From a virus: 39,957 nucleotides of DNA. Position 1 is the first letter of the stretch. Every line of letters starts with the position of its first letter. The translations under genes and the position numbers were made by a program. Of this stretch, positions 4,995 through 36,946 are shown piece by piece. The notes beneath the pieces are model-generated. The model was not told the DNA's origin. It saw only the letters and a list, made by a program, of their open reading frames with translations, and did no database searches. The DNA is taken from the IMG/VR virus record IMGVR_UViG_3300028388_005781, positions 1 through 39,957 of that record, one strand, 5' to 3'.

Positions 4995-4997
4995 TTA

Positions 4998-7396: not shown

Positions 7397-7413
7397 AGTT
7401 TGAGGGGATAGAT

Positions 7414-7785: not shown

Positions 7786-7795
7786 AAAAAGACAT

Positions 7796-7809: not shown

Positions 7810-7843
7810 AAGAGACCGCATGAAAACTTTTGGTTTTTCCGCC

Positions 7844-7872: not shown

Positions 7873-7944
7873 ATTGTTAGTATGTGTCATGGTCGCGATA
7901 AGCTTCACATGACTTTTTTGTATTTCAACAAAAAGGAATATTGT

Positions 7945-17319: not shown

Positions 17320-18486
17320 ATGGATATCAAAACCAAGCCACGGTCTCAAGAAATGTTTCGGACGATAAGTCCTAACACATATCGAGAGGCTTATGGGCAG
17401 GGAATGACTCTTACTGAGTATCTAAATGTAGAACTCAAGGATGAAGTAGAAGCTTCTAGGCGTGATGGTTCTAACATGGATGGCTTTGAGCTTTTGATGA
17501 AGCAAGCCGGTATTAGAACACAGCCATATGGACCTTGGGGATTGCCCGCTTCTACGTATGAAGATTTTCAAAAAACAGATGAAAGCAGGGCGCTGATTCC
17601 GGAGTGGATGGCGCGTCAGTGGCGTTCAGTTAGCTTCGCGACTGATCAGCGAGCGCTTTACCTGTCAAACGATGAAATTCCGGGATCGCTAGCGAATCCC
17701 TATGCTGATGCTTCTACCCCGCGCTATCAGCAGTTGCAGGCTGCCATTCCGTTGACTGAGTTGGTCGCTTTTACCACTCCGATCACTGGTGCTGTATATC
17801 GTGCTCATTTTTTGAGCAGCACGGCGGCTGAGCGACGCATGGTTCGTGTCGGTGAAGCGGCAGAAGTGCCGCGTGTGCGCCTTGTGGGCGCTGACCATAC
17901 TGTGCAGCTATACAAGTATGGTCGTGCGCTGGAGGCTTCATATGAAAGTTTGCGGCGCATGCGGATTGATCGCATCGGGTATTGGATTCGCATGCTTGCA
18001 ATTCAGGCTGAAAAAGATAAGGTTTCAACGGTGGCGGATGTTCTCGTAAATGGTGACGGTAATACCGGAACCAGCGCTACGAATTACAACTTGACCACTC
18101 TCGATTCTGCTGCTACTGCTGGAACGCTGACCTTGAAAGCATGGCTGAATTTCAAGATGCAGATTGAATCGCCTTACGCAGTTACCACTGCATTGGCGCG
18201 TAACGATATTGTTCTACAAATGATGTTGTTGAACATGGGGAGCGCAAATGTTCCTGCGGTTATGATCAACGCCCTATCTGGCTTTGGCGGTCTAACCGCT
18301 ATCAACCCTGGTTTGGGTGATAACGTGCGCGTCGGCTGGACTACTGATGTAGCGGCTAATAAGATTCTGGCTTTTGACAATCGCTTTGCGGTCGAGCGTG
18401 TGTACGAAGTCGGTGCCGACATTCAGGAAGTTGAACGATACGCGACTCGCTCTTTTAGAAGAAGACGAACGACATCCGAGCGGTGA
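17320..18486 (+). CDS. Major capsid protein (HK97 fold)
   Basis: 388 residues, with GGAG before the ATG. The N-terminus (about 1-60) is helical and charged; AEVPRVRLVGADHTVQLYKYG and RALEASYESLRRMRID are the E-loop/P-domain phrases of this family, followed by VNGDGN, AWLNFKMQIE and the long A-domain. The end is odd: after DIQEVERYATRSF the frame runs into RRRRTTSER and stops, whereas relatives usually continue with a hydrophobic strand. An open frame (+1) continues through this point and encodes the next protein, so either the two genes overlap or an indel has shortened the capsid protein. Confidence 0.9.
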   Translation: MDIKTKPRSQEMFRTISPNTYREAYGQGMTLTEYLNVELKDEVEASRRDGSNMDGFELLMKQAGIRTQPYGPWGLPASTYEDFQKTDESRALIPEWMARQWRSVSFATDQRALYLSNDEIPGSLANPYADASTPRYQQLQAAIPLTELVAFTTPITGAVYRAHFLSSTAAERRMVRVGEAAEVPRVRLVGADHTVQLYKYGRALEASYESLRRMRIDRIGYWIRMLAIQAEKDKVSTVADVLVNGDGNTGTSATNYNLTTLDSAATAGTLTLKAWLNFKMQIESPYAVTTALARNDIVLQMMLLNMGSANVPAVMINALSGFGGLTAINPGLGDNVRVGWTTDVAANKILAFDNRFAVERVYEVGADIQEVERYATRSFRRRRTTSER

Positions 18487-20957: not shown

Positions 20958-21443
20958 ATGGCTGCAACAGTTTCAATCAGGGTAAATACTGGCGCTAGTG
21001 CTGGCACTGAAAGTGGTGCCACCACCGCTATTGATTTCATGTCTGCCGATGGTGCTACAAGTAGCCTGGCAAATCGTCAGGCAAACCCAATCACTGTTGG
21101 AAATAAAAGTTACGAAAAGTGGCTTACGGCAAGGGTGGATGTTGCACCGGATAACTCAGTAAGTAATTTCAAGTGGTGGGGTGACGAAGCAGTGCAATCG
21201 AGCACACACCTCTATATTGGTACAACTGATACTGGTGTTACGCCAACCAGTGCGGATAGCACTGTAGCAACTAACGATTTTACTAGTTATAGTTCAAGTG
21301 CTAAGTTTGATTGGCACAGTACGAGTATGACTGGTGTTGGCAGTACAACGGTTTTCGCTGTGTTTCAGTTGGATGTTGATGCGGATGCGGCGGCTGGTAA
21401 CTGGACACAAGAGACGTTAAGTTATTCATACGACGAAACTTAG
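20958..21443 (+). CDS. Virion structural protein (161 aa)
   Basis: AGGAGA precedes the ATG. Sequence is beta-rich, Ser/Thr-rich and poor in charged residues: TVSIRVNTGASAGTESGATT, VAPDNSVSNFKWWGD, TTVFAVFQLDVDADAAAG. This is the signature of a phage beta-sandwich surface or connector protein, with no enzyme motif. It has its own promoter and structured leader, so it may be made in large amount. Decoration or fibre function is inferred from its place in the module. Confidence 0.6.
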   Translation: MAATVSIRVNTGASAGTESGATTAIDFMSADGATSSLANRQANPITVGNKSYEKWLTARVDVAPDNSVSNFKWWGDEAVQSSTHLYIGTTDTGVTPTSADSTVATNDFTSYSSSAKFDWHSTSMTGVGSTTVFAVFQLDVDADAAAGNWTQETLSYSYDET

Positions 21444-21462: not shown

Positions 21463-22947
21463 ATGTCTAGAGCGGTTTTTGTTTTAGGTTCTGGCCGGAG
21501 TGGAACGTCTGCTGTGGCAGGTGTGCTACACAAGCTTGGTGTTCCTATGGGAGAACCTTTTGTTCAAACGACATCGGCCAACTCACGGGGAACGTTTGAA
21601 GATTATCAATTATACCAGTTGAACCGTGAATATCTTGCAAATGGGATAGCTGATTTTGATTCTTGGGTAGAAGAGAGGAGTGGCCCGCCAGTATGGGGGG
21701 CGAAAGCGCCTACGTTATCTTATACCTTTAATCAAATTTGGCCGATGTTGAATGACGCGCGGGTGATCGTTGTTACACGGTCACCCGCCGCTTCAATTTC
21801 AAGCTATCAGCGCGCATATGATACTAAGCTGGTAGATGCACAAGCTTGGTATCAAAAAACTATTGATGCGCTCGATGAACAGTTATCGAAATTTCCAGGA
21901 GAAATTAAAACTGTTAAATACGAACAATTATTGAATAGCCCGAATACCGTCATTGATAAAATTATTGACTTTGTGTTTGATGGAATTGATCGTCCAGGCT
22001 ATTTGCAAATTGATGATGCAATATCATTTATCGAACCGGCGATGCAACGTTATGATGCAGACGGAAAATGGATTCAACGGCCAATAGAAAAAAAGAATGA
22101 CTTTGGTTCTGTTGCTGTTGGTGTCAGGCTTGCTAAACATCCTGAGTTTAGTTTTTTTACAGATTGCATTGCTCTTATGACGGGGGGATTAAGAACAGGA
22201 GATACAATTCTTTATCCGCGCGGTCATATGCCAGCGCATTGGGCAGGGGATGCTATTGTTCGTGATTTTTTGCGAACAGACAAGGATTCTCTTTTAATGC
22301 TTGATGACGACATGACTTTTCCGCCAGATTCATTGGAGAAATTACGTTCAAATCCAGAAAATCAAAAGTATGATATTGTTTTTGGGTTTTGTACCTTTAG
22401 GGTGTGGCCTCCTAAACCTGTGGTTTACAAGTTGCAAGAACCGAAACCAGAACCGCAATCGTTATTGGGTGACAGTTTTTCTCCTGCATTGGATTTAATA
22501 GATGGTGAAGTAAGACCTGTCGATGCAGTGGGTCTTGCTTTTACGCTAATTAAGCGCCATGTATTTGAAGCGATGATTAATCCAACATGGGGACCGCAGT
22601 GGTCATTTATTTTTAAGTCTCTATCAAGGGAGGGATTATTTCGAGAAATTGTTGGACAAAAGAATATTAATCTTGAGCTTACTTCATTTTTTTCTTATGG
22701 AGAAGCAAAAGAATCTGATGATATTCCATGGAGTCGTGTTTGTCGAGAGTTGGGTTTCACCATGGCTGTGGACACCAATGTTAAGATCGGACACATAGGT
22801 CATTTGCCGCTTGGATGGGAAGACTATCAGAGATGGCTTAAAACGAAAGATACTAAAGAAGTCGATCTTGACATTGATAAATTGAAAAGAGTTCTTGAAA
22901 ACAGTGATACTGACGAAGCCAGAGAATTGTTGGAATTAATCAGCTAA
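21463..22947 (+). CDS. Fusion of sulfotransferase and GT-A glycosyltransferase
   Basis: 494 residues in one clean frame. Residues 1-190: sulfotransferase fold with the 5'-phosphosulfate loop GSGRSGTS at 9-16 and VIVVTRSPAASISSY as the 3'-phosphate box. Residues about 205-494: glycosyltransferase of GT-A type, with HWAGDAIVRDF, SLLMLDDDMTFPPDSL (D281-D283, DxD metal site) and a C-terminal hydrophobic end WEDYQRWL. One chain could attach a sugar and add sulfate from PAPS, or both ends could act on the same surface glycan. It stands in the virion operon directly after a structural gene. A second, separate sulfotransferase is at 33531-34214. Confidence 0.85.
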   Translation: MSRAVFVLGSGRSGTSAVAGVLHKLGVPMGEPFVQTTSANSRGTFEDYQLYQLNREYLANGIADFDSWVEERSGPPVWGAKAPTLSYTFNQIWPMLNDARVIVVTRSPAASISSYQRAYDTKLVDAQAWYQKTIDALDEQLSKFPGEIKTVKYEQLLNSPNTVIDKIIDFVFDGIDRPGYLQIDDAISFIEPAMQRYDADGKWIQRPIEKKNDFGSVAVGVRLAKHPEFSFFTDCIALMTGGLRTGDTILYPRGHMPAHWAGDAIVRDFLRTDKDSLLMLDDDMTFPPDSLEKLRSNPENQKYDIVFGFCTFRVWPPKPVVYKLQEPKPEPQSLLGDSFSPALDLIDGEVRPVDAVGLAFTLIKRHVFEAMINPTWGPQWSFIFKSLSREGLFREIVGQKNINLELTSFFSYGEAKESDDIPWSRVCRELGFTMAVDTNVKIGHIGHLPLGWEDYQRWLKTKDTKEVDLDIDKLKRVLENSDTDEARELLELIS

Positions 22948-22964
22948 ATGAGGAGTAGCAGTTG

Positions 22965-23360
22965 ATGCAACCCATAAAATATGATGTTTTAATTGAAGGT
23001 GAATATGAAAACGGTCAAAAATATAATATTAGGGTTGCCTGGGGGCAAGAATCTGAGTGGATTAAAAAACATCGCAAAGAACTAGACGGTGCAAGATATA
23101 TTACGCTATATCCTAAAAAAGATTTTTTAAATATGCCCACCGTTGTAGTTTCACTAGATGAAAATAAACGATGGATTTTATTCTCCAGGGTGTATGGAGC
23201 AATAGGGGCATACAATTCAGGAGCAACGGAAATTCGGTTATATTGTATTGGTTGGCAATTAGAAACAAGGGGTGTAAATGTAAAGAATTTAATGTGGATT
23301 TACCCTAATGGTTCAGTAGAATCAGCAGAAGAACCAGGTTTTGTCAATTTGTTTTTTTAA
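22965..23360 (+). CDS. Hypothetical protein (131 aa)
   Basis: ATG 22965 follows GAGGAG; TTG 22962 is an alternative. The protein is rich in aromatic and charged residues, with YDVLIEGEYENGQKYNIRV, a central PTVVVSLDENKRWILFSRVYG and a closing hydrophobic end. Beta-rich and soluble, not recognised. It follows the fusion transferase gene and precedes hairpin DNA at 23369-23436. Confidence 0.5.
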   Translation: MQPIKYDVLIEGEYENGQKYNIRVAWGQESEWIKKHRKELDGARYITLYPKKDFLNMPTVVVSLDENKRWILFSRVYGAIGAYNSGATEIRLYCIGWQLETRGVNVKNLMWIYPNGSVESAEEPGFVNLFF

Positions 23361-23449: not shown

Positions 23450-23857
23450 ATGCGATCAGTAAGTAAGCGGTCTATGATTCTGCTTGTGCTGGTGTTAGCG
23501 TTATTGCCGATGCCAGCACATGCAGAAATCATTACTACGCCATTTAGCGAATTTGCTAATGGCGATGTTGTCATTAATTTCGATCACAATCGAGGCAATG
23601 GCAACGTGCTGCGTTTTCGTTGCATCAACAATGCGGACCAGGATGCATGGTTGGGCGTGTACGATTGCCCAAATGGCGAATGTACGCTTGTTGGTGACGC
23701 CATCTGCTATGCCGGGGAAACTTACGAAGTGAATGTTCCCGGAATTTCGGTGGCGTGGAAATGCGAACTGCTTGATCCTGAGCATCCCGAGTGGGGCGAG
23801 GATTGCGGGCTTGACATGGCTGATTATCAGTTTCACGCTCGTTATCCGGCAAACTAG
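23450..23857 (+). CDS. Secreted small beta protein with Sec signal peptide (135 aa)
   Basis: AAAGGAG precedes the ATG. Residues 1-25 are a typical signal peptide: KR, a Leu/Val core and the AHA cleavage site before Glu26. The mature ~110 residues contain six Cys (in pairs CIN...CPNGEC, CYAG...CELL, DCG) that could form disulfides after export. The body is homologous to the next gene: both share a strand with NxGNGN, then W-x-V, and end ARYP/ARWPA. Function unknown; export from the host cell is the clear prediction. Confidence 0.75.
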   Translation: MRSVSKRSMILLVLVLALLPMPAHAEIITTPFSEFANGDVVINFDHNRGNGNVLRFRCINNADQDAWLGVYDCPNGECTLVGDAICYAGETYEVNVPGISVAWKCELLDPEHPEWGEDCGLDMADYQFHARYPAN

Positions 23858-23859: not shown

Positions 23860-24177
23860 ATGGCCAACGTAGAGCACACATTTGCAGTGTTGGGTGACGG
23901 CTTGATCGTCGCCACTTTCACTCGCAATACAGGCAACGGCAACATCACCGGCGTGACTGTCACCAATGACAGTGATGCTGATATGTTTTGGCGTGTGCTA
24001 GAAAACGATGTTGAACGTTTCACTGGGACAGCACCGTCAAACGAGGTGTCAACATGGCCGGTCGCCGGGATAGCATTTGAGCAGCAGCCGGATTACTGGA
24101 ATAGTGTTACTGAACAATGGGAACCCGACGGCTTAGATTTTGGACCGTGGGTAATTCAAGCAAGGTGGCCCGCATGA
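23860..24177 (+). CDS. Paralogue of preceding protein, without signal peptide (105 aa)
   Basis: Begins 2 bases after the previous stop. VLGDGLIVATFTRNTGNGN and the end GLDFGPWVIQARWPA align to the neighbour's matching regions, but there is no signal peptide and only no Cys pair pattern, so the disulfide set is lost. This pair looks like a tandem duplication in which one copy was retargeted. Not recognised as a known family; the ending overlaps the next ATG by 4 bases. Confidence 0.6.
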   Translation: MANVEHTFAVLGDGLIVATFTRNTGNGNITGVTVTNDSDADMFWRVLENDVERFTGTAPSNEVSTWPVAGIAFEQQPDYWNSVTEQWEPDGLDFGPWVIQARWPA

Positions 24178-24770
24178 GTGATTCATTGGCCTTGATCCAA
24201 CAAAGCGGATTGTTGGATGCGTCTGACCAACGACAATTGGCTACGCTGATGAGTGACGTGTCTCAGTCGTTTGAAACGGCTCAAGTGTTTCGAACGCAAA
24301 CTGAAATGCGGGTCAGCGTTTTAAATGACGTAAAGCACCCGACTCCTGACAGCAAGTATTGGCAAGCGGTTAGAGAACAGGACGTGCATTTTACTGAGCT
24401 TGTGCATCTTAGTTATGAGTACCGCAAGAAAATGCTTGAGATTAAACGGCTAGAACGTGACCGAGACGCCGAAGAAGATGATCTTGAGCGTGCCATGCTC
24501 GACCTAGAGATTGAGCACCAGAACTACATACTAATGCTCATGCGCAGGCAAGCCCACCATCGGACCAGAGAGGTAGCTTCATGGGCGGCGATCAAAGACG
24601 AATTACGCCCACTGCTTAAGTACGGCGATGCCGACGTGAACTCCCACCAATTGGAAGCGATGCGAATCCGATTTGGGAATGAAGCCCGATTGGTCAACGA
24701 TCATACGCCGGTTGCCGATGCCAGAAATGTACTGGCTTTAGCCATGCAGGCTGAGAAGGAAAGTAAGTAG
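24174..24770 (+). CDS. Hypothetical coiled-coil protein (198 aa)
   Basis: ATG 24174 overlaps the previous stop (ATGA) by 4 bases. Residues about 70-140 form a long acidic and basic helix (KKMLEIKRLERDRDAEEDD, LERAMLDLEIEHQNYI). The remainder is helical too. A linker or adaptor role for the following large repeat protein is possible, because the two are coupled (TAG/GTG overlap at 24770). Confidence 0.55.
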   Translation: MSDSLALIQQSGLLDASDQRQLATLMSDVSQSFETAQVFRTQTEMRVSVLNDVKHPTPDSKYWQAVREQDVHFTELVHLSYEYRKKMLEIKRLERDRDAEEDDLERAMLDLEIEHQNYILMLMRRQAHHRTREVASWAAIKDELRPLLKYGDADVNSHQLEAMRIRFGNEARLVNDHTPVADARNVLALAMQAEKESK

Positions 24771-27331
24771 TGGCTCTCTTTCCTGGTTGGTCAAGCGGTG
24801 GCAATCTCAACACGGCACGGGATTCCCTAGCCGGTGCTGGTACGCAATCGGCGGGACTATCGTTTGGGGGAAGTACGGCCACCAGCGCCCTCGCTGTCAC
24901 AGAAGAGTATGACGGATCGTCATGGTCAAGCGGTGGCGACCTCAACACGGCACGACGCATTTTAGCTGGTTGTCGTACGCAATCAGCGGGGTTGTCGTTC
25001 GGGGGATATGTGACTGCCCCCCTCGCTGTCACTGAAGAGTACGATGGATCATCATGGTCAAGCGGCGGTGATCTCAACACGGCACGGTATCGATTGGCCG
25101 GTTGTGGTACGCAAACTGCGGGGTTGTCGTTCGGGGGATATGGACCAAGTGCAGTCACCGAGGAATATGATGGATCGTCGTGGTTAATCAGTGGCAATCT
25201 CAACACAGCACGGTATTACCTAGCCGGTGCTGGCACGCAGACGGCAGGACTGTCGTTTGGTGGGTATGACAGTGACTATTCCGCAGTCACCGAAGAATAT
25301 GGCGCAGGCGTTGAGTATGTTCGTATTTTAGGCACTGCGAATGGCAATGATTCTTGGTTTGAGATAATCATCAACGGGCTTATAGAAATAGATGACGTTG
25401 TTATTATCTGTGCGGCTAATGACACTGGTATAAGTACTACGTCGTTTCTTGCATCGTCATCTAACGCTCATTCAACGGCATGCTACACAGCCGCCACTGC
25501 GACAAATAGCGGGAATACCGTTGCCACCATTCGGTATGGTCAAGTAACTGATTTGTATTATGCCTACAAGATTCGTGTATGGTCAAGTGGGGCCGGTGGA
25601 CTCACGGCTTACGCTGTGAGGGGCCTTGATCTTTCAGATGTTGCGAATCTTGTAGACAAAACGGCTACATCTACTGGCAGTAGTGGTTTTCCTTCGTCTG
25701 GTTCCACAGCGACCTTAACGCAGGCAGAGGAGGTTGTGGTTGGTGCCATCGGCATGGAGCACAAGGTCGATGAATCCACCGGTTCGTGGAGCACAGGCAC
25801 AACCACCGTCAGCGGCTACGAACAAATTGCGGGCACGACTGGTAATGGCTCTGCGGCCAATAACGTCATTCGCAGTGCGGCAGAAACCGTTAGCGCAACT
25901 GATCCGCAAACGGCGGCGATTATTGGTGAAAATAGCGCCGACTGGGCCGCAGCCATCGCAACATTTTTGGTTAGTGCTGGCGCTGAAACGCAGACGGGTA
26001 GCATCACGGCTGACGCCACGATTGCAGTCAGTCAATCTGGTTCAATTGCCGGCGATGCTGTTATCAAAGATACGCAGACGGGGAGCATCACCGCCGATGC
26101 GACGATTGTAATCACGCAAAGCGGCTCAATAACCGCTGATGCAATTATTCAGGCAACGCAAACGGGGAGTGTAGTTGCCGATGCTGTCATCAAAGACACG
26201 CAAAGCGGCTCAATAACAGCAGATGCTGTTATACTGGTGGCTGGCACCGGAAGCATTACCGGCAACGCCATCATTCAAGCCACGCAGACGGGTTCTGTCA
26301 CAAGCGATGCTATTATTCAGGCGACACAGACTGATAGCATCACTGGTGATAGCATCATTCTGCGGTCGGAGAGCGGCAGCATTACCGCTGATGCCGCCAT
26401 CGTCAGGACGGAAACGGGGAGCGTAACCGCAGACGCAATCGTCAAAGCGACGCAAACGGGGTCCATAACTGGTGATGCGGTTATATTGGACACGCAATCA
26501 GGCTCAGTTACAGCCGACGCCTGGTTTGCTCCAGGAACATTAATTGATAGTATTTCTTCAAATGCTATTATTCATGATACTCAATCAAATAGCATTACGG
26601 CTGATGCTGTTTTAAAACAAATTCAAGCCAGTAGTATTACAGCGTTAGCTGTAATACGAGATGTACAAACTGAAAATGTTACTGCTGATGCTGTTACTTT
26701 AAAAATACAATTAAATTCAGTTACCTTAAATGCAATTGTTGAGCGAACTGAAGCTGACAGTATTACAACAAACGCTATAATTAATCGAGTTGAAACAAAG
26801 TCAATAACCGCAAATACAATTATTGCGGATACGCAAGTTAACTCGATTACAGCAAATTCAATTGTCTTTGTCACACAAACTGAATCTGTTACAACTGATG
26901 CAGTTATTGCCGTAACACAATCTCAAAATATAACAGCAGATGCAGTTAAAACTGCATCACAAGCCAATTTTATTACGGCTAATGCAGTAATTTCATTAAT
27001 TGGTAAATGCACATGGGTTTCGCCGCCTAATACATCAAGCACCAGTGATAATACACCAATACTAGTTTTTAATATGCCAGATTCTACTTCTGGTAATATG
27101 CATTTTAATATCGAATTTGATACTGCTGACACATTTGATACTGTAAATTTAATCGTTATAAAATCGCATTACAATCAAACTGGGTGGGAATATCATAATG
27201 GGGTGGATTGGCAAGCATTTCCTGCAAGTGGTATAGATGTAGCGTATGCAGGAAATCAATGTCGATATACCATTCAATCATCTCTTGATGTTGATACATG
27301 GTATAGACGTGTAAGGGGCGGCGTATCATGA
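24770..27331 (+). CDS. Giant repeat protein: kelch-like repeats, beta domain and 14-aa repeats (853 aa)
   Basis: GTG 24770 overlaps the previous stop. Residues 1-180: four kelch-like repeats with WSSGGDLNTAR, LAGCGTQ and FGGY...VTEEYDGSSW, each 42-45 residues, a possible beta-propeller (a full propeller usually needs more blades). Residues about 180-405: beta domain with VEYVRILGTANGNDSWF and SADWAAAIATFLV. Residues about 405-745: some two dozen 14-residue repeats of the type TQSGSITADAIIQA. The last ~100 residues (TWVSPPNTSSTSDNTPIL to the stop) form a separate beta domain. Surface fibre or adhesin-like part of the virion is the best reading. Its stop overlaps the next start. Confidence 0.7.
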   Translation: MALFPGWSSGGNLNTARDSLAGAGTQSAGLSFGGSTATSALAVTEEYDGSSWSSGGDLNTARRILAGCRTQSAGLSFGGYVTAPLAVTEEYDGSSWSSGGDLNTARYRLAGCGTQTAGLSFGGYGPSAVTEEYDGSSWLISGNLNTARYYLAGAGTQTAGLSFGGYDSDYSAVTEEYGAGVEYVRILGTANGNDSWFEIIINGLIEIDDVVIICAANDTGISTTSFLASSSNAHSTACYTAATATNSGNTVATIRYGQVTDLYYAYKIRVWSSGAGGLTAYAVRGLDLSDVANLVDKTATSTGSSGFPSSGSTATLTQAEEVVVGAIGMEHKVDESTGSWSTGTTTVSGYEQIAGTTGNGSAANNVIRSAAETVSATDPQTAAIIGENSADWAAAIATFLVSAGAETQTGSITADATIAVSQSGSIAGDAVIKDTQTGSITADATIVITQSGSITADAIIQATQTGSVVADAVIKDTQSGSITADAVILVAGTGSITGNAIIQATQTGSVTSDAIIQATQTDSITGDSIILRSESGSITADAAIVRTETGSVTADAIVKATQTGSITGDAVILDTQSGSVTADAWFAPGTLIDSISSNAIIHDTQSNSITADAVLKQIQASSITALAVIRDVQTENVTADAVTLKIQLNSVTLNAIVERTEADSITTNAIINRVETKSITANTIIADTQVNSITANSIVFVTQTESVTTDAVIAVTQSQNITADAVKTASQANFITANAVISLIGKCTWVSPPNTSSTSDNTPILVFNMPDSTSGNMHFNIEFDTADTFDTVNLIVIKSHYNQTGWEYHNGVDWQAFPASGIDVAYAGNQCRYTIQSSLDVDTWYRRVRGGVS
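24788..25310 (+). repeat. Four kelch-like coding repeats
   Basis: Copies begin near 24788, 24923, 25055 and 25181, so periods are 135, 132 and 126 bases. The shared core is TGGTCAAGCGGTGGC followed by ctCAACACGGCACG. The DNA of copies 1-3 is very similar, suggesting recent expansion; copy 4 has drifted. Confidence 0.85.
25990..27000 (+). repeat. Array of 42-bp coding repeats, first block
   Basis: About 24 units of 42 bases (14 codons), consensus V/I-I-x-x-T-Q-S/T-G/D-S-I/V-T-A/S-D-A. Base composition changes at about 26530: units before it are GC-rich (GCC, GAC, CGG codons), those after it are AT-rich. The protein pattern does not change at that point. Confidence 0.85.
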
Positions 27332-30129
27332 CGCAATATGCTCGCCCTACTTCACCAGATATTACAACTGGTAGTTGGTCGCCATCTACTGGAACAACGC
27401 TTTATGGTTGTATTGACGAAGCTACCGCTGCTGACGGTGACTTTATTTATTGTCCTGCGGCAACGCTTTCGACTTGTGAAGTAACATTATCGTCTGTAAA
27501 TACCCCTACGACTAACACAAATCATGTGGTTAGTTACAGGTTGCGTCGAGAAAAAACAAACAAATCTCAAACAGTAGTTGTGAGATTGATGGAAGACACA
27601 ACTACAATTGCATCTTGGACTGAAGTAGATCCATCTGGCACTTTTGCAACTTTTCAAAGAACTTTAACAACTACACAAGCTGATAATATATCAGATTATA
27701 GTGGATTAAGTTTGCAGTTTGAAGTTACCGTTGCTGAGGTGGGCGGCGGTGAAATGGAGGTGTCTTGGGCTGAATTCGCCGTACCGGACGGGGCAACGAC
27801 GGTTAGCGATTCAATTATAGCAAATGCCATTGTTCAAGATACACAATCTGGTAGCATTAGTGCAGATACTATTGTTCAACGGATTGAGACGGGGAGCGTC
27901 ACAGGTGATGCAACACTTGTTGTTGTTCATGACGAAAGCATTACTGCTGATGCAATAGTTGGGGGTACGCAATCTGATTCAATAACAAGTGATGCTGTTT
28001 TTCTTGTTAATCAATCTGGTTCTCTTACTTCGGATGCTCTAATTAATGTTGGCTTTAGCGATGCAATTACAGCCAATGCAATAATTTCTAAAACTCAATC
28101 CGAAAATGTTTCTGCTGACTCGACAATACTTAAGCAGCAATCTAATAATGTAATTTCTAATGCTTTTGTTAAGCGGATTGAAACAGGTAGCGTTACTGCC
28201 AATGCAGTTTTTGATCTGATTTACGGGCCATGGTCAGAAACTTGGTCGTTAACTATAACGGCTGTTACTGGTGGAAGTATTACTGCCAATGCGATTATAC
28301 AAGTTACGCAGTCTGGCAGTGTTACCGCTGATGCAGTTGTACAGGCTGCGCAGTCTGGCAATATCACTTCTGGCGCAGTTATACGAGCTTTACAAACCGA
28401 TAGTGTTAATACAAATGCAATTATACGAGTTACGCAGTCCGATAGTATTACTGCTAATGCGGTTGTAAAAGCTACGCAGGTTAGTAATGTTACAGTTGAT
28501 ACAATTATTACGGGGGAACAATCTGGCAGTGTAACTAGTGATGCAATTATTCAAATTGCTCACACTGATAACATTACATCTGATGCTATCATTCAGATTG
28601 TACAAGCTGGTTCAGTCACTGCCGATTCGGTAATTTTAACTACCCAAGCGAGGAGTACAACTGCTGACGCAATCGTTAAGGCGATCCAAGCGCAAACGAT
28701 TGACGCTAATGCAATAATTCAAGCAACGCAATCAGGTTCAGTTACTGCCGATTCGGTGTTATTTGAGGCACAATTTAGTAGCATCACTGCTGATGCTATT
28801 TTGCTAGTTGCGCAGTCTGCGGACATTACAGCTAACGCTATCATCCAGTCTACTCAAACTGACTCGATGTTAGCCGATGCGGTAATAACGGCAACACAAT
28901 TTAATTCAATAACAAGTGATGCTGTAATAACAACTGCGCAATCTAATAACATAACATCTAATGCTGTTATTACGGCAACACAATCCAGTAGTATTACGGC
29001 TAATGCTATTGTTTTGATTGCACAAGCGGGGGATATAACCGCTGATGCTGTAGTTCAGGCTACACAATCAAACAACATCACTAGCAATGCAATTTTCAAA
29101 GCAACGCAGCTTGATTCGATTGTCGCTAATGCAATAATACAGATCGCACAAGTAGAAAGTGTGACCGCTGATGCAATTATTAAAATTGTTCAGTCTAAAA
29201 ACATTATTGCTGATGCAGTAGTATTAAAAATACAATCAGGTAGCACTACAGCCGATGCCATTTTACTTGGCACACAATCTGATTCTATCACATCCAATGC
29301 TGTTTTATTTGATACGCAATCAGATAACATTACGGCTAATGCGGTTGTACAAACCTTACAATCTGATAGCGTTACTGCTGATGCAGTCGTACAAGCTACG
29401 CAAGCTAGCAGCATTACAGTAGATGTAGTCATACAAGCTACGCAAGCTGATAACATCACAGTAGATGCGGTTGTACAGGTAGCGCAAGCTGGCGATATTA
29501 CAGCAGGTGCGGTTGTACAAGCTGTACAGCCCGGTAGTATTACTGTTGATGCAGTTATACAAACCACGCAATCTGATAGCATCACAGCCAATGCAGTCAT
29601 ACAAGTTACGCAGTCTGATAGCGTTACCGCCAGTGCAATCACTTTAAGAGTTGTATCAGATGGTATTACATCTAATGCAGTTATTAAAGCCACTCAGCTA
29701 AACAATGTTATAGCCAATGCTGTTATCACCGGAACGCAATCTGGTTCGATTTCAGCAGACGCTTACTTACTAGAAGTTTCTACTGGTGTTGGCAGTGTAG
29801 AAGCAGATGCGGTAATTAAATCAGAGTATTCTGATTCAGTCACAGCCGACGCAAGAATTGTTCAGAGAATAACTGACAATATTACATCTGATGCAGTTAT
29901 TCAAACAACAAATCTTGGCTCCATTACAGCCGACGCAGTTACTTTAACAACAAAAGAAAACAATGTCGCTGGTAATGCCTTAATATACGCTGAGTATATT
30001 TGGAGCATCACAGCAGATGCGGTTGTAAAAGTCGCACAAGCTGATAGTGTTACTGCGAACGCAGTTGTACAAGTTGTTCAGTTTGGTAGCATCACAGCCG
30101 GTCCGGTAGCGTTACCGCTAGTGCAATAA
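27328..30129 (+). CDS. Giant 14-residue repeat protein (933 aa, broken by frame shift)
   Basis: The ATG overlaps the previous stop (ATGA). Residues 1-155: beta-sandwich domain (SWSPSTGTTLYGCIDEA, HVVSYRLRR, VSWAEFAVPDG), a phage structural type. Then more than fifty copies of the 14-residue unit, interrupted once at about residue 297 by a short spacer (YGPWSETWSLTITAVTGG). Repeats with 14 residues and Ser/Thr, small and Ile/Val at fixed places suggest a beta-solenoid fibre. The frame ends at 30129 because a 488-bp duplication changes frame at about 30101; see 30102-30656 and 30590-31396. Confidence 0.7.
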   Translation: MTQYARPTSPDITTGSWSPSTGTTLYGCIDEATAADGDFIYCPAATLSTCEVTLSSVNTPTTNTNHVVSYRLRREKTNKSQTVVVRLMEDTTTIASWTEVDPSGTFATFQRTLTTTQADNISDYSGLSLQFEVTVAEVGGGEMEVSWAEFAVPDGATTVSDSIIANAIVQDTQSGSISADTIVQRIETGSVTGDATLVVVHDESITADAIVGGTQSDSITSDAVFLVNQSGSLTSDALINVGFSDAITANAIISKTQSENVSADSTILKQQSNNVISNAFVKRIETGSVTANAVFDLIYGPWSETWSLTITAVTGGSITANAIIQVTQSGSVTADAVVQAAQSGNITSGAVIRALQTDSVNTNAIIRVTQSDSITANAVVKATQVSNVTVDTIITGEQSGSVTSDAIIQIAHTDNITSDAIIQIVQAGSVTADSVILTTQARSTTADAIVKAIQAQTIDANAIIQATQSGSVTADSVLFEAQFSSITADAILLVAQSADITANAIIQSTQTDSMLADAVITATQFNSITSDAVITTAQSNNITSNAVITATQSSSITANAIVLIAQAGDITADAVVQATQSNNITSNAIFKATQLDSIVANAIIQIAQVESVTADAIIKIVQSKNIIADAVVLKIQSGSTTADAILLGTQSDSITSNAVLFDTQSDNITANAVVQTLQSDSVTADAVVQATQASSITVDVVIQATQADNITVDAVVQVAQAGDITAGAVVQAVQPGSITVDAVIQTTQSDSITANAVIQVTQSDSVTASAITLRVVSDGITSNAVIKATQLNNVIANAVITGTQSGSISADAYLLEVSTGVGSVEADAVIKSEYSDSVTADARIVQRITDNITSDAVIQTTNLGSITADAVTLTTKENNVAGNALIYAEYIWSITADAVVKVAQADSVTANAVVQVVQFGSITAGPVALPLVQ

Positions 30130-30598
30130 CTCTAAGAATTGTATCAGATAACATTACATCTGATGCAGTTATTGAAGCTACTCAGCCAAACAATGTTATA
30201 GCCAATGCTGTTATTACCGGGACGCAATCCGGTTCGATTTCAGCAGGCGCTTACTTACTAGAAGTTTCTACTGGTGTTGGCAGTGTAGAAGCAAATGCAG
30301 TAATTAAATCAGAATATTCCGATTCAGTCACAGCCGACGCAAGAATTGTTCAGAGAATAACTGACAACATCACATCTGATGCAGTTATTCAAACAACAAT
30401 TTCGGATTACATCACAGCAAATGCTGTTACTTTAACAACAAAAGAAAACAATGTCGCTGGTAATGCCTTAATATACGCTGAGTATATTCGGAGCATCACA
30501 GCAGATGCGGTTGTAAAAGTCGCACAAGCTGATAGTGTTACTGCGAACGCAGTTGTACAAGTTGTTCAGTTTGGTAGCATCACAGCCGTACGCAAATT
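29623..30598 (+). repeat. Tandem 488-bp direct duplication inside repeat gene
   Basis: Copy 1 runs from 29623 to 30110 and copy 2 from 30111 to about 30598, offset 488 bases, with a few substitutions (for instance CCAGTGCAATCACTTT versus CTAGTGCAATAACTCT). 488 is not a multiple of 3, so a frame change follows. Both copies end at the same words, AGCATCACAGCCG, and then differ: GTCCGGTAGC versus TACGCAAATT. Confidence 0.8.
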
Positions 30599-30656
30599 AG
30601 CAGTATTTCAGCTAATGCCTATCTTATTGAATTATCGGTGGGTGTTGGAAGTGTAA
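30102..30656 (+). pseudogene. Out-of-frame middle segment of the repeat protein
   Basis: After the first junction (30101) the next frame is open from 30102 to 30656 and reads the same repeats (TASAITLRIVSDNITSDAVIEAT pattern, shown here in part). It has no start codon with a ribosome binding site and would only be translated as part of a continuous protein. The second junction at about 30589 shifts the frame again. This is either a real inactivating or phase-variable rearrangement, or an assembly fault in repeat DNA. Confidence 0.6.
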
Positions 30657-31396
30657 CTGCTGACGCAATTATTTGGGCTAAACGCCTTGCTTCAATTACT
30701 GCTGATGCTTATTTTGTCGTTTCTGCAACGGGGAACATTGTCGCCAATGCAATAGTAAAAACGACGCAATCGAACAACATTGCTGCAAATGCAGTATTAC
30801 ATGATATACAAAGTAGTAGTGTCACTGGTGATGCTACTATACAAAAAACAGAAACTAATGATGTAAACGCTAATGCCATACTGAAAATAGCGCGCATAAA
30901 CAGCGTAACCGCTAATTCAGTTGTGCGAGAAATAAAAAGCGGCAGTATTCTAGCGGAAGCCGTAATAGAAAAAACAACTTCCAAATCTATTACGGGAGAT
31001 GCCGCAATCTCTGTTCCTGCACAGGGATTTGTTACTGGTGATGCCGTTGTTTGTCAAGTACAAACTGGTAACATTCAGGCAGACGGTGTTGTTTTAGCGA
31101 CGAACACAGGCGAAATTACTGCTGATGCTCGCTTTAGATTAGCGATAATATCGCAGTCAATTACAGCTAGTGCAATCCTGAGCGGAACGCATACAAATGA
31201 TTTGCTGGCTAATGCAATAATAAGTGGGGTCAATTCGGCAACGATTATTGCAAATGCCTTCATTACAGCGCAAACATTAACTTGTCAAATACTTACTGTT
31301 GAAGAAGAGAATAGAACTTGGAATATAGCTTCTGAAACCAGAATACTGAACATCGATTTAGAAGCCAGAACACTTACGGTGCAATGCAATGACTGA
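30590..31396 (+). CDS. C-terminal part of the repeat protein (third frame)
   Basis: Continues the repeat protein in a third frame: TQISSISANAYLIELSVGVG, then 16 or so repeats. A GTG at 30638 exists but lies inside the repeat and lacks a ribosome binding site, so it is not a true start. The end differs: residues near the stop read LTCQILTVEEENRTWNI and LEARTLTVQCND, a beta closing cap. The stop overlaps the ATG of the next gene (31389), which shows the frame is real. Confidence 0.65.
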   Translation, partial: TQISSISANAYLIELSVGVGSVTADAIIWAKRLASITADAYFVVSATGNIVANAIVKTTQSNNIAANAVLHDIQSSSVTGDATIQKTETNDVNANAILKIARINSVTANSVVREIKSGSILAEAVIEKTTSKSITGDAAISVPAQGFVTGDAVVCQVQTGNIQADGVVLATNTGEITADARFRLAIISQSITASAILSGTHTNDLLANAIISGVNSATIIANAFITAQTLTCQILTVEEENRTWNIASETRILNIDLEARTLTVQCND

Positions 31397-31661
31397 AACA
31401 GTTTATACAAAAGATCCGGATGCAAAATTAGATTATCAAGTGAATTGGTCAAACTGGCTTGGAATTGATACCATATCCTCATCGACATGGGTTATTGAAG
31501 ATGGTATTACAAAAGTCAGTGATACCAATACAACAACCACTGCTACAGTTTGGCTGTCTGGCGGCACTTCCGGAGAGACGTACGCGATTACAAATCGAAT
31601 TCAAACTGCTGGAGGCAGAATTGATGACCGGACATTTTATGTAGATGTGGAGAATCGTTAA
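31389..31661 (+). CDS. Phage structural beta protein (90 aa)
   Basis: Overlaps the repeat gene by 8 bases. KDPDAKLDYQVNWSNWLG, DTISSSTWVIEDG, TATVWLSGGTSGETYAITNRI, DDRTFYVDVENR is a pattern very common in phage structural clusters between head and tail genes: an Ig-like beta-sandwich with a 'TVWLSGGT' strand. Its exact job is not known to me; surface exposed decoration or fibre-cap is likely. The coupling to the repeat gene suggests it is part of the same structure. Confidence 0.7.
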   Translation: MTETVYTKDPDAKLDYQVNWSNWLGIDTISSSTWVIEDGITKVSDTNTTTTATVWLSGGTSGETYAITNRIQTAGGRIDDRTFYVDVENR

Positions 31662-31663: not shown

Positions 31664-32017
31664 ATGCCGGACTTCATGAATTTGTCTCCCCTCAGAACTC
31701 TTGCAGAACAGGCAATGGACGATACATGTGTAATTCGTCGCGTTACTTATGGGACAGATAATTTTGGCGGCGAAACTCAAATTATTACGACGCTCGGAAC
31801 ATATAATTGTCGTTTAAGAGAATGGGGCGTTACGCCACGCGAACAGCATATAATGGGTATGATGCAAATTTCTAATGCGTATGCTCTGTTTTTGCCTTAT
31901 GATACGGACGTTGAAAACGAAGACCGTGTTTCATTTAATTCTCAATTGTTTGAAGTTATAGACGCAGATAAACATCAAACAATCAACGTGCAAAAAAAAG
32001 TAATGTTGAGGGACTAA
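31664..32017 (+). CDS. Head closure / head-tail stopper protein
   Basis: 117 residues, 2 bases after the previous stop. CVIRRVTYGTDNFGG, GTYNCRLREWGVTPRE, YALFLPYDTDVENEDRVSF, LFEVIDADKHQ fit the DUF6093-like head closure proteins: a small beta barrel with a 'NAYxLxLPxxTDVxxxDRV' strand. It seals the connector after packaging. The gene lies before the HK97 gp10-like gene, which is the usual order. Confidence 0.8.
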   Translation: MPDFMNLSPLRTLAEQAMDDTCVIRRVTYGTDNFGGETQIITTLGTYNCRLREWGVTPREQHIMGMMQISNAYALFLPYDTDVENEDRVSFNSQLFEVIDADKHQTINVQKKVMLRD

Positions 32018-32018: not shown

Positions 32019-32531
32019 ATGAAACCGAATGACAAAATAACAAACTTTGTTAGAAAAAAACTAGGCAAACACAGGACTGGCGTTGTTGTAGAGTATGATT
32101 TATTACCACAAATGACTGCTCATATGCTAGCAAACGCTGAAAGAGAAACTAAGCGAGCAGCAGAGGAAGTTATTGATGAGGCAAGACGGTTGATGGAATT
32201 ACCCAAAACTGGCAGATGGTATTATGGACATCACGCTTCTGCTCCAGGTGAAGCACCGGCTATTTACACTCAAGAGCTTTATGATTCTTTGAAAGTAGGT
32301 AAGATAAATCCATTCCAGTGGATGACGTTTTCAGATTCAGATCATGCTTATATCATGGAGTATGGAACGCCTAATGGGCAGATTGCTCCGCGCCCTTATT
32401 TCAAACCTGCTTACGAATATGCAAAAAAGCGCTATACAAAACGAATGCTTTGGTATTTATTTAAACTTGATTTAGCTGATTGGATACGGCTTAGAAAAAG
32501 TATGAAAGTCGAAATTTATGAGGGATATTGA
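32019..32531 (+). CDS. HK97 gp10-like neck/tail protein
   Basis: 170 residues behind TTGAGGGA. The characteristic core is SAPGEAPAIYTQELYDSLKV, DHAYIMEYGTPNG and IAPRPYFKPAYEYA, as in HK97 gp10 and tail-completion proteins. Residues 35-70 form a helix rich in Ala, Glu and Arg. The protein links the head connector to the tail and its stop overlaps the next start (ATG 32531). Confidence 0.85.
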   Translation: MKPNDKITNFVRKKLGKHRTGVVVEYDLLPQMTAHMLANAERETKRAAEEVIDEARRLMELPKTGRWYYGHHASAPGEAPAIYTQELYDSLKVGKINPFQWMTFSDSDHAYIMEYGTPNGQIAPRPYFKPAYEYAKKRYTKRMLWYLFKLDLADWIRLRKSMKVEIYEGY

Positions 32532-32950
32532 TGCAAGAATCTGAAATCGCAGTTCAATGGGTTTATAAAACTCTATCACAAGATTCGACATTGATGTCGC
32601 TAATAAACGGTGTACATGATACGGCGATACCAGAAAGATATGCGGATGATTTGCCTAGAATTCAGATATCCGTGTTAGATTCCAGGCCATTAAAAGTTGT
32701 TGATAGACATAAAATATTTACACGCGTCCCCGTGCTTGTCAGAATTGTTAATTCGAGCACATCGTTTTCAGATATACATGTGGCAGCAAATCGTGTTGAC
32801 GCGTTGCTTCATAGACAGGGCGGAGTGGCGGATGATGGTGCTGTTTTGTCATCGGAATTAAGTCGAGAATTAAGGGAGGCTGATCGCGTGGATGGTAAAG
32901 AATATAGAAATTTGGGTGGAGAATATTTTTTGATCGTGAAAGCCACATGA
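32531..32950 (+). CDS. Tail terminator / tail completion protein
   Basis: 139 residues from ATG 32531 behind GAGGG. Residue pattern: WVYKTLSQDSTLMSLI, PRIQISVLDSRPLKVVD, RVPVLVRIVN, AANRVDALLH and a closing YFLIVKAT strand. This is the alpha/beta fold of small tail terminators that ring the top of the tail tube; gene order supports it. The last 4 bases overlap the first glycosyltransferase gene, so the morphogenesis operon runs straight into the glycan genes. Confidence 0.75.
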   Translation: MQESEIAVQWVYKTLSQDSTLMSLINGVHDTAIPERYADDLPRIQISVLDSRPLKVVDRHKIFTRVPVLVRIVNSSTSFSDIHVAANRVDALLHRQGGVADDGAVLSSELSRELREADRVDGKEYRNLGGEYFLIVKAT

Positions 32951-33534
32951 ACAGATTATCTGTTGACTTAATCGTTCCATCATTGAATAAAGATCGAGCG
33001 AGGGAAACCGGACAGCGAGCGCGTGTTTCCGCCGGATATCCAAGTACATTATTTGTTGCGTATGATAAAGATAGGAGTGGATTTACAAAAACAGTTAACA
33101 ATGCGCTAAGAAAAACACAAAGCCCATTTGTTTGTTTGCTCAACGATGATGCAAGGCCGTTTACATCTGGTTGGTTGAGACATTTAGTAAATGCATTAAT
33201 AGAAAGACCGAATGCCGGATTCGCAGGTGTTTCAGGAAATTGCAGGACGAGGCCACAGGCATTTGGTTTGCCCGGATCTCCATATGGTGTTATTGAAGTT
33301 GGACACGTTGCGTTTTTTTGCACACTTATTAGACGGCGCGCCCTTGAAGACGTAAAATATTTAGATGAAAAATTCATTCACTATGGAAGTGATGTCGATG
33401 TGCAATGGCGAGCAAAACGTCATGGTTGGAAATCAGTATGGGTAAGACATGTTTATGTGTATCATGATCTTGGAGATTTCATACAACCGTGGAAAAACAT
33501 AGATCAAGAAACATTTGATCGGAGATGGAAATGA
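32947..33534 (+). CDS. GT2-type glycosyltransferase (195 aa)
   Basis: MNRLSVDLIVPSLNKDRA starts the GT-A fold; SPFVCLLNDDARPFTSGWL gives the DxD-type metal site (NDD), and LDEKFIHYGSDVDVQWRAKR resembles the GT2 'ED' region. It is short for GT2, the minimal catalytic domain. It would move a sugar from a nucleotide-sugar donor, probably to a protein or glycan. Overlaps the tail terminator (ATGA) before it and the sulfotransferase after it. Confidence 0.85.
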   Translation: MNRLSVDLIVPSLNKDRARETGQRARVSAGYPSTLFVAYDKDRSGFTKTVNNALRKTQSPFVCLLNDDARPFTSGWLRHLVNALIERPNAGFAGVSGNCRTRPQAFGLPGSPYGVIEVGHVAFFCTLIRRRALEDVKYLDEKFIHYGSDVDVQWRAKRHGWKSVWVRHVYVYHDLGDFIQPWKNIDQETFDRRWK

Positions 33535-34214: not shown

Positions 34215-34933
34215 TTGAGGTGCAGCAAATATCGTTAAAACAATTAATAAGTTGTTTAAATGCCGGAGATGCATTCACCTGGACACGTTATGGCGATGGT
34301 GAATGGTACAGCATTCTTGGTGAAACTGGTCAAACGCAATGCGGGCAAAAATATTTGCCAGCGCTTAGACAAGATTTAATATTGACGCTGGCTAAACCGC
34401 ACAAACACAATTATTATTACGGAATTTCAAGAAAAGCGACAATAGATCTTGGTAATAGAATCTATATGTTTTTGCGAGAAACAGGGATAGATATTGATTG
34501 GATTGATAGTCAAGTCTTTCATTTTGCCAATATAGGTGGCATGCTTTTCCCTTTTATAGATTTTTTGAGAAAAAGCAGGGTGGCAATCGTAGGTCCAAAA
34601 AGGCATAAAGAAATTGCCACATTAATTCCTGTTCAAATTCATGTTCAAATTCCAGAAGTGACTGCTTATGAAGTCGCCAGTGATATTACTGAAGAATGTG
34701 AGCAAGTGATTAGTTCTGGCGAGATTGATGTTTTGACATTGAGTGCCGGAATGGCAAGTGAAGTTATTGCGCACAGTTTGCATAAAACGGCACAATCGTA
34801 TAATGTAAGCGTTATAGATGTTGGATCAATGTGGGATGGTTATCTCACAAATGTCGGCAAAGGTAAAAGGGGTTATATGAATAGGCTGGACTTTGAAGTT
34901 TTAAGAAAAATGAATTTTCAGGGCGTAGAATGA
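34211..34933 (+). CDS. GT-D fold glycosyltransferase-like protein (240 aa)
   Basis: The N-terminal phrase FTWTRYGDGEWYSILG matches the 'RFGDGE' signature of the GT-D domain (DUF1792), where DxE is the metal site. RVAIVGPKRHKEIATLIPVQ and YNVSVIDVGSMWDGYL correspond to the later conserved strands of this family. Known members extend protein O-glycans, as in serine-rich adhesins of streptococci. The overlaps (ATGA) on both sides tie it to the sulfotransferase and the next glycosyltransferase. Confidence 0.8.
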   Translation: MIEVQQISLKQLISCLNAGDAFTWTRYGDGEWYSILGETGQTQCGQKYLPALRQDLILTLAKPHKHNYYYGISRKATIDLGNRIYMFLRETGIDIDWIDSQVFHFANIGGMLFPFIDFLRKSRVAIVGPKRHKEIATLIPVQIHVQIPEVTAYEVASDITEECEQVISSGEIDVLTLSAGMASEVIAHSLHKTAQSYNVSVIDVGSMWDGYLTNVGKGKRGYMNRLDFEVLRKMNFQGVE

Positions 34934-35724
34934 AACGAATCGGATGGATTGCGGACGCAACGATGGTTAATTTCGGCGCAGAATTAAGCGGTGGATCGCT
35001 TATTAAATCATGCCCGGATGAATATGAAATTATCCCGTGTCAACCGAGGTTAATTCCGCCATGCGACGCATATATTTTTCAGAACAAATATACATTTGAT
35101 AAGAGAGTAATTTCTTTCATAAAAGACAAACCTGTAATCAATGTTATTCGAGATATGTGGCTTGTTGCTGATGAAACTCTTCGAAGTTGGTTGTTACAAA
35201 ATTCAGCGTTGACTATTTTCGGTAGCCCATTGCATAGACAGAAGTTTGTTTTTCCTGTCGAAACACCGATTGCGTATGTTCCTCCACCGGTAAATTTGAA
35301 GCCGTTTAAGGATGCAGCAAGAAATGCAAAAAATCGGAGTGGCGTTTTTTGGCTTGGTCAAATGAGCGGACCATGGAAAGGAATAAACGCAGCAGTTACC
35401 TGGGCAAAAAACAACCAAACGCTCGTTGATTTTTACGGTTTTGGAAGAGATGCACCGAGAGACGGAAAATATGTAAAAAATCACGGTTATGTGGCATATG
35501 AAGATGTGCCTGGCATAATGGCAAAATATAAAAGTTTTTTGTTTTTGCCAGCGCAAATGGAATCGTTTGGTAGGACGGTTGTAGAAGCCGTTGCTGCTGG
35601 CTGTGAATTGATTGTGAATACAAATATTGGAGCCTTGTGGTGGTTAGAAAACGATCCGGCGGCTATACTCAGAGCTAAACAATTGTTCTGGGACACTGTA
35701 AAACCAGTTATAGAAGGAGATTGA
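34930..35724 (+). CDS. GT-B type (GT4-like) glycosyltransferase (264 aa)
   Basis: The C-terminal Rossmann half is clear: SGVFWLGQMSGPWKGINAAV is the donor-side start, KNHGYVAYEDVPGIMAKYKS, then FLPAQMESFGRTVVEAVAAG (the E-x7-E motif of GT4) and CELIVNTNIGALWWLEND. The N-terminal half is shortened to ~115 residues, so this is a compact GT-B enzyme. It overlaps the previous gene by 4 bases. Confidence 0.85.
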   Translation: MKRIGWIADATMVNFGAELSGGSLIKSCPDEYEIIPCQPRLIPPCDAYIFQNKYTFDKRVISFIKDKPVINVIRDMWLVADETLRSWLLQNSALTIFGSPLHRQKFVFPVETPIAYVPPPVNLKPFKDAARNAKNRSGVFWLGQMSGPWKGINAAVTWAKNNQTLVDFYGFGRDAPRDGKYVKNHGYVAYEDVPGIMAKYKSFLFLPAQMESFGRTVVEAVAAGCELIVNTNIGALWWLENDPAAILRAKQLFWDTVKPVIEGD

Positions 35725-35725: not shown

Positions 35726-36946
35726 GTGACCGATTCAGTTGTTGAGGGTAACGCCCTAAATATTTTCTGGCTTAGTAATGCGCCATTTTCTAATAGTGGA
35801 TATGGTACTCAGACGAAGCTTGTGACGCCAGAATTACAAAAGCTTGGTCACAACGTTAGGTTGATGACCAACTACGGCCTCGAAACGGGAACTTTAGTTT
35901 ACAATGGAATGGAAGTTTATAGCCGTGCTTTAGACGTATGGGGAATGGATATTCTTCCTGCTCACATGGGGCACACTAAATCTAATGTTCTCGTCACACT
36001 GCAAGATCTATGGACTATCAGCAATTTGGGATTAATGGCAGTAGAAAATGGATGGACATGGATTCCATGGCTACCTATTGATTTTGATCCGATCCCGGAC
36101 AAGGTTTTGCGCAACTTAGATGGAGTTCACACTGCGCTTCCGTTCAGCCGTTTCGGGGAACGGCTGTTGACACAGGCCGGTGTGAGAAATCGATATATTC
36201 CTCATGTTCTTAATCCAGCGTTTTATCCAGAAGATAAACGCAAGGCTAAAGAAAAAATGGGAATACCGCAGGAAAAGTTTTTGATTGGGATGGTTGCTAT
36301 GAATAATGCCGACCCAAGTCGGAAAGCGATTCCTGAGCAGCTTATGGCTTTTTCTCGTTTCCACGAAAAGTATCCAAATACAATGATGTATTTGCACACA
36401 TTCGTTGGTAGACAATATAGGGGCATCAACGTAGTTGATGTTGTCAATAGCTTGGGGTTAAACGATTCGGTAATGTGGTCAGAACAATATGCGTATACTC
36501 TTGGCTTCAGTGATGATGACATGAGAGTACTATATAATGCTTTTGACTTGCTAAGTTGTGCTTCCAGGTTTGAGGGATTTGGTTTACCGATATTAGAGGC
36601 ACAAGCTTGCGGGACTCCAGTTGTAACGACAGACGCCACTTCGATGAGTGAATTGACGTGGTCTGGAATTGCTGTTGGAAACACTCGCAAGACTTGGCAT
36701 CCGCTATCTCGATGGATTGATGTACCAGATCCTAATGAGATTTTCAATGCGTACTGCCAAATGTACGAAACAATGCAGACTGAAGATGGAAGAAACGAGT
36801 TTAGGAACAATGCAATTGAAGGCGCTAAATTCTTTGAAAAGGATCGCGTTATTCAAGAATATTGGAAACCTTTGCTTGATGACATTGTTGTCGAACGCAT
36901 GGCAGAACGAGTTAGACGAATAAGGTACGAAGTACCGGACGAATAA
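35726..36946 (+). CDS. GT4-family glycosyltransferase (406 aa)
   Basis: GTG 35726 is behind GAAGGAG with 6 bases of spacing. Full-length GT-B enzyme: FWLSNAPFSNSGYGTQTKLV with the N-terminal glycine-rich loop, LPFSRFGERLLTQAGV, NPAFYPEDKRKAKEKMGI, then CASRFEGFGLPILEAQACGTP, the classical E-x7-E donor site. It retains sugar stereochemistry if it follows its family. It ends the transferase cluster; the major tail protein gene starts 10 bases later, so the cluster lies wholly inside the tail module. Confidence 0.95.
   Translation: MTDSVVEGNALNIFWLSNAPFSNSGYGTQTKLVTPELQKLGHNVRLMTNYGLETGTLVYNGMEVYSRALDVWGMDILPAHMGHTKSNVLVTLQDLWTISNLGLMAVENGWTWIPWLPIDFDPIPDKVLRNLDGVHTALPFSRFGERLLTQAGVRNRYIPHVLNPAFYPEDKRKAKEKMGIPQEKFLIGMVAMNNADPSRKAIPEQLMAFSRFHEKYPNTMMYLHTFVGRQYRGINVVDVVNSLGLNDSVMWSEQYAYTLGFSDDDMRVLYNAFDLLSCASRFEGFGLPILEAQACGTPVVTTDATSMSELTWSGIAVGNTRKTWHPLSRWIDVPDPNEIFNAYCQMYETMQTEDGRNEFRNNAIEGAKFFEKDRVIQEYWKPLLDDIVVERMAERVRRIRYEVPDE

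Follow-up and report, generated by a model that had tools for sequence, protein, structure and literature searches.

A 14-residue repeat array beside a Gp77-type adaptor gene in an uncultured phage, a candidate shaft of a modular virion fibre

Gene organization of the locus

The DNA analyzed here, referred to below as the window, is a whole linear IMG/VR virus record of 39957 bases. The genes described in this section all lie on its plus strand. Genes for the terminase large subunit (10613-12094), the portal (12104-13717) and the major head protein (17320-18486) come first, and in this record the module ends downstream with a tape measure gene (38570-39898). Between them lie two large genes, ORF1 (24770-27331, 853 aa) and ORF2 (27328-30129, 933 aa), which overlap through the sequence ATGA. 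Behind the end of the repeat array that these genes carry, a small adaptor gene (31389-31661) is followed by genes for a head-tail adaptor (31664-32017) and a Neck1/tail completion protein (32019-32531), which puts the array in the neck module. Three glycosyltransferase genes come next, at 32947-33534, 34930-35724 and 35726-36946 (phrog_2170); two unnamed genes are interspersed.

Three genes upstream of ORF1 recur with such arrays. The first (20958-21443) encodes a 161-aa protein with no family match that is conserved in 12 array-carrying loci; aligned with 11 relatives from array-bearing loci, it shows 39 to 71% identity, and it is the best sequence marker of the module. The second (21463-22947) combines a sulfotransferase domain (PF13469, 1.6e-12) with a weak glycosyltransferase-2 match, an unusual pairing in a phage, and its close relatives adjoin arrays in loci L073, L069, L089 and L010. 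The third (22962-23360) encodes a 132-aa protein; its 18 relatives are spread over 16 loci, almost all of which have arrays.

ORF1 begins with a 132-bp repeat in 3.7 copies (24788-25268), whose units (phrog_27227) look kelch-like by eye and have a relative in locus L119. A middle beta-domain (25331-25984), conserved in L073 and L089, leads into 24 array units and a C-terminal domain (26996-27331), of which relatives were found in L073 and L064 (twice in each), L095 and L049. ORF2 consists of an N-terminal domain (27328-27795), with relatives in L073, L009, L011 and L064, and 53 array units. Neither ORF matched Pfam, and the kelch-like repeats of ORF1 likewise gave no Pfam match. AlphaFold2 predicted the ORF2 N-terminal domain as a confident beta sandwich (residues ~50-152) with a CBM4/CBM15-like fold. 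Its nearest folds were the cellulose-synthase protein BcsB and CBM4/CBM15 (Z 8-8.9; for CBM4/CBM15, 8-8.6), middling values since a Z of ~8 is common among beta sandwiches.

A repeat array of 101 units

The array was mapped with an iterated 14-position score matrix. This gave 101 non-overlapping units of the motif A-T-Q-S-G-S-I-T-A-D-A-V-I-x between 25985 and 31225 on the plus strand, compared with a mean of 0.4 and a maximum of 3 units in 200 shuffles of the same proteins. The first-pass annotation had counted about a hundred such repeats, and this count was borne out. When the matrix was run over the whole 39957 bases, no array units were found on the opposite strand or elsewhere in the window. 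Conservation among the 101 units was highest at I/V7 (96), D/N10 (92) and A11 (89), followed by T8 (76), A9 (70), S6 (70) and Q3 (65).

It had also been proposed that a 42-base unit recurs across two coupled genes. The spacing stood up, neighbouring units being exactly 42 bases apart in nearly all cases, as did the coupling through the ATGA overlap. However, only 77 of the 101 units are in these two genes, and the array is interrupted. The 24 units of ORF1 (25985-26995) are parted from the 53 units of ORF2 (27796-30114) by ~800 bases of non-repeat domain sequence, made up of the end of ORF1 and the start of ORF2. The other 24 units lie downstream in two further frames, with 10 in a second frame (30093-30560), within copy 2 of a duplication described below, and 14 in a third (30587-31225). 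A C-terminal tail (31226-31396; ..VEEENRTWNIASETRILNIDLEARTLTVQCND) follows, which by eye resembles the tails of the array proteins of L010 and L044.

A duplication and two frame breaks in the last third of the array

The reading frame is broken twice, once at the joint inside a duplication and once at its end. The duplicated segment of 488 bp is present in two copies that are 93% identical (29619-30588, plus strand), and because 488 is not a multiple of 3, copy 2 is out of frame with copy 1. Each copy is nonetheless open in its own frame. Of the changes between them, 19 are synonymous and 15 non-synonymous, with a dN/dS of 0.24, which together with the open frames argues that both copies have been under selection as protein. 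The copies end on the same base after ~100 nearly or wholly identical bases, and both frame breaks fall within a unit, just after the same sequence. Downstream of the breaks, the frame still runs into the start of the adaptor gene.

The best fit to these features is either an error of assembly or a lesion of very recent origin. We lean slightly toward the first of these, namely that the end of the array (30090-31396) was produced when a short-read assembler misjoined near-identical copies, and that the true gene is one open frame with another number of units. Selection on both copies, their shared end point, the position of the breaks inside units and the reach of the last frame into the adaptor gene all speak for such an artefact, although a real recent duplication with a small deletion would give an identical picture. 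Most of the array would in any case not be artefactual, since its first 77 units are diverged (~41% mutual identity) and stand in intact frames. The artefact is compatible with the fibre interpretation given below. The exact copy number of the array is uncertain, as its last third could come from faulty assembly or belong to a broken gene.

The repeat family in other phages

Relatives of the array were sought in IMG/VR with degenerate DNA patterns, first of one unit and then of two. The one-unit pattern matched four other contigs, all of them true arrays, and the two-unit pattern matched at least 119 stretches. After a re-scan, from which coiled coils and a family with a 20-residue period were excluded, arrays were present in ~35 distinct viral contigs, with the consensus x-T-x-S-G-S-F-T-A-D-A-V-I-x. 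The unit is thus found in other viral contigs, all from uncultured phages, where the first-pass annotation had proposed to look for it. An exact-peptide search of IMG/VR with ORF2 returned nothing. A tblastn search of cultured phages with ORF1, ORF2 and the L010 array also returned nothing, although the low-complexity filter of BLAST may hide some matches. No model in Pfam, PHROGs or NCBIfam matched the arrays of the window, and the relatives gave only weak scattered matches; no paper on the motif was found in the literature searched.

Several candidates were rejected as members. The repeats of L022, L047, L063, L085, L096, L102 and L141 were leucine/alanine rich and coiled-coil-like. A 298-aa protein with a spacing of ~20 residues (for example in L025) was kept outside the 14-residue family. 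This protein is widespread: phage proteins of ~298 aa with a ~20-residue repeat (..SGSITANADVVADAIRIQ..) and a C-terminal NTWTPVS repeat occur in L025, L061 and dozens more IMG/VR loci, and they are close in style to the 14-residue array.

Outside viruses, the two-unit pattern gave 14 matches in 84,980 bacterial and archaeal genomes. Those inspected were coiled coils or chance pairs and were rejected; none was a true array. A link to Chloroflexota, suggested in the first-pass annotation, was not supported: one match of the pattern fell in this phylum, and a profile search of 400 of its genomes gave one weak match.

The number of units ranged from 2 to ~80, with 81 in L092. Units were more alike within a phage than between phages (identity of 0.41 versus 0.34, higher within in 30 of 36 arrays), a pattern that would result from growth and shrinkage of arrays through duplication. 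The architecture of the genes also varied. In L064, one gene joins an ORF2-type N-terminal domain, two units and an ORF1-type C-terminal domain, and several members have whole domains inserted between units. A search of 17 array phage records, several of them fragments, did not recover the major head protein of the window; its absence suggests that the module moves between lineages.

Predicted fold of the array

A beta-solenoid fibre had been suggested for the repeat at the outset. AlphaFold2 was run on 13 units with a 41-row family alignment, and it returned an all-beta model with a pLDDT of 83.6 and a pTM of 0.78 (pLDDT 83.6 to 59.5 over the five models). With five rows only, the array part of ORF2 reached a pLDDT of ~45. 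Fibre folds with repeats of similar length exist, such as the adenovirus triple beta-spiral with its 15-residue repeats. In VIA, the array model resembled a SufB/SufD-type beta-helix (5awg; Z 13.4, rmsd 2.9, 180 residues) and curli CsgA (8enq; Z 11.7, rmsd 7.8, 111 residues). These are structural likenesses of the model without a sequence relation, and they are subject to a known bias, AlphaFold2 giving confident but unrealistic beta-solenoids for random perfect repeats (PMC11795689). Foldseek found nothing significant for the model in the PDB (best E 0.05) and only weak matches to uncharacterised proteins in BFVD. PDB profile searches with the array, the ORF2 N-terminal domain, the 161-aa protein and the 132-aa protein gave no convincing relative.

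The sequences themselves carry some regularity. Hydrophobic positions 7, 9, 11 and 13 alternate, and A11 is near-invariant over ~35 phages. The residues at position 12 were correlated at a lag of two units (z ~4, stable to leaving out loci) and not at a lag of one (z ~-1), with the lag-2 signal visible individually in only 23 of 36 arrays. This hints at a coil of 28 residues made of two units, with which the signal would be compatible.

Alternatively, the array could be a linker, either disordered or with a loose structure, and not a regular fibre. The low pLDDT with the shallow alignment would agree with this, as would the variable spacing of units (10, 15, 17, 18 and 24 residues occur) and the domains that interrupt the array. 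The alternating hydrophobic positions and the near-invariant alanine, kept over so many phages, and the lag-2 correlation argue in the other direction, and we consider a linker unlikely. A beta-solenoid is a plausible fold for the array and consistent with the deeper model, which has to be read with the shallow-alignment result and the AlphaFold2 bias in mind; the other part of the earlier suggestion, the fibre, is backed by the adjacent adaptor gene.

An adaptor gene behind the array

The small gene at 31389-31661 starts within the last codons of the array. Its product matched PF23148 ("Podophage GP4 fiber-tail adaptor gp77") over positions 1-83 of 84, with 96 bits against a cut-off of 27 (E 1.9e-27), and in phmmer it matched chain D of PDB 8jou (E 9.6e-8). 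Judged by its sequence, it is a clear member of PF23148, and its product would be expected to bind the array protein. Relatives of this adaptor are encoded behind the arrays of L010 and L044. Among 22 small genes or C-terminal domains located right after arrays, 11 matched BppU_N and 3 matched Gp77. BppU_N was present in 16 of 35 array records and in 0 of 50 random phage records, statistics that ignore kinship; the random records were contigs holding an arbitrary 15-base pattern.

The window array is flanked by the major head protein gene (from 17320) and the head-tail adaptor and Neck1 genes (from 31664 and 32019), and it therefore belongs to the head/neck module. In L016 the order is array, BppU_N, glycosyltransferase, head protease, major head protein, head-tail adaptor, Neck1, tail terminator and major tail protein. 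Placement at the neck is not general: some relatives have their array genes in the head module, others have them elsewhere.

A modular virion fibre as the probable function

Because a Gp77-type adaptor gene overlaps the end of the array and Gp77 or BppU_N adaptors follow the arrays of many relatives, we propose that the array probably forms the shaft of a modular fibre on the virion, located most likely at the neck (collar) or else on the tail. Binding-type domains would lie on the N-terminal side (the kelch-like repeats of ORF1 and the carbohydrate-binding-module-like sandwich of ORF2), with 14-residue beta units, varying in number, as the spacer between them and the virion. The fibre would be anchored by an Ig-like adaptor encoded in a gene of its own, of the Gp77 type here and of the BppU_N type in relatives. 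Such a fibre could hold on to the host surface in a reversible manner ahead of tail engagement, its reach being set by the number of units. The analysis directly shows the repeat and its family, the arrangement of domains, the adaptor gene next to the array, the vicinity of neck genes and an enrichment of glycosyltransferases (see below); we infer the presence of the protein in the virion, an extended beta fold of the array, binding of the adaptor to the array and sugar binding by the tip. Several points count against the proposal: the adaptor is assigned from sequence, the CBM-like match is middling, the array model is confident only with the deep alignment and subject to the AlphaFold2 bias, the place of array genes varies among relatives, and the last third of the window array is out of frame.

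What is new here is the type of shaft; the kind, a modular phage adhesion fibre, is known. The proposed fibre would act much as do the neck passage structure (NPS) fibres of lactococcal 936 and TP901-1 phages, which are tied to the neck and have a BppU_N-like domain, a long shaft and carbohydrate-binding domains (PMC6669499, PMC10747895). In the neck-passage fibres, the BppU_N-like domain is at the collar and the carbohydrate-binding modules are terminal, and one such module bound host cells (PMC6669499). The TP901-1 collar is non-essential and is expressed with the capsid (PMC6669499; cf. PMC10747895). However, the BppU_N-like domain of NPS fibres is the N terminus of the same protein, whereas the window adaptor is a separate downstream gene; the TP901-1 shaft is a predicted trimeric coiled coil, whereas that of the window consists of a beta-type repeat of 14 residues; and array proteins have their binding-type domains at the N terminus or inserted. 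With its anchor in a separate gene and a different repeat in its shaft, the window module falls outside the NPS definition.

Gp77 of podophage GP4 (PF23148, PDB 8jou) provides the second comparison, since the gene behind the window array is a member of its Pfam family and matches the solved chain. Unlike GP4, the window record has the neck and tape measure genes of a long-tailed phage, and its array had no PDB relative by profile search. A third system, gp34-36 of siphophage LSH1, is similar by description, being a three-gene accessory module with a putative adhesin, a GP4-like fibril and an Ig-fold protein (PMC13243795). Beta-helix predictions of poor quality were reported for it beside the adhesin domain, and it differs in its genome place, downstream of lysis (PMC13243795).

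Adhesion devices decide which bacteria a phage infects, and in uncultured phages they are mostly unannotated. A tandem GS[IFLV]TA[DN]A every 42 bases offers a simple marker for a fibre module that is missing from Pfam, PHROGs and NCBIfam.

Glycosyltransferases associated with the arrays

PF00534 glycosyltransferases were present in 21 of 35 array records and in 5 (over the cut-off) or 6 of the 50 random phage records (Fisher p ~2e-6 to 4e-6, ignoring kinship). They were commoner in the array records even though these are shorter than the controls, and a glycosyltransferase often lies directly behind the array and BppU_N. Glycosylation of the array is possible given these transferases, and the array is a candidate acceptor. 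Arrays accompanied by a detected transferase had the same Ser/Thr fraction (0.241) as those for which none was detected (0.227), and fixed Ser/Thr alone is therefore no evidence of glycosylation.

The array might instead be mainly a glycan-bearing coat, its exposed Ser/Thr loaded by the phage's own glycosyltransferases and sulfotransferase, which would shield the virion or mimic the host surface and leave adhesion secondary. The PF00534 enrichment and the frequent position of a transferase right after the array and BppU_N fit this, as does the sulfotransferase/glycosyltransferase gene, whose relatives were found in 13 loci, nearly all array-bearing. The enrichment figure, however, ignores the shared ancestry of the module, the Ser/Thr fractions indicate that Ser/Thr conservation needs no glycan, and the transferases also adjoin capsid genes and could modify the capsid or nothing in the virion. 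We regard a coat as a rather improbable main function and continue to favour the fibre shaft. Through the repeat, a giant gene is connected with a known adaptor family and with glycosyltransferases, so that the repeat's place in the virion and its glycosylation can be tested directly.

A broader generalization is more doubtful still. The arrays might define a phage-only class of fibre in several uncultured tailed-phage lineages, with a glycosylated beta-solenoid shaft of two 14-residue units (28 residues) per coil, a length tuned by unit number, exchangeable sugar-binding domains along the shaft and interchangeable Ig adaptors (Gp77 or BppU_N).

Additional observations on neighbouring genes

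Two adjacent genes of the window, at 23450-23857 and 23860-24177, have their matches in the same genes of L073 and L089 and are therefore probably paralogues; the first has a signal-peptide-like start. In L119, kelch-like repeats resembling those with which ORF1 begins make up most of an open frame of 2018 aa (2440-8493), which also holds four array-like units. In L073 (3442-5688) and L069 (5752-7884), the stretch that separates the major head protein gene from the fibre module encodes a large protein with a glycoside hydrolase 25/endolysin-like domain.
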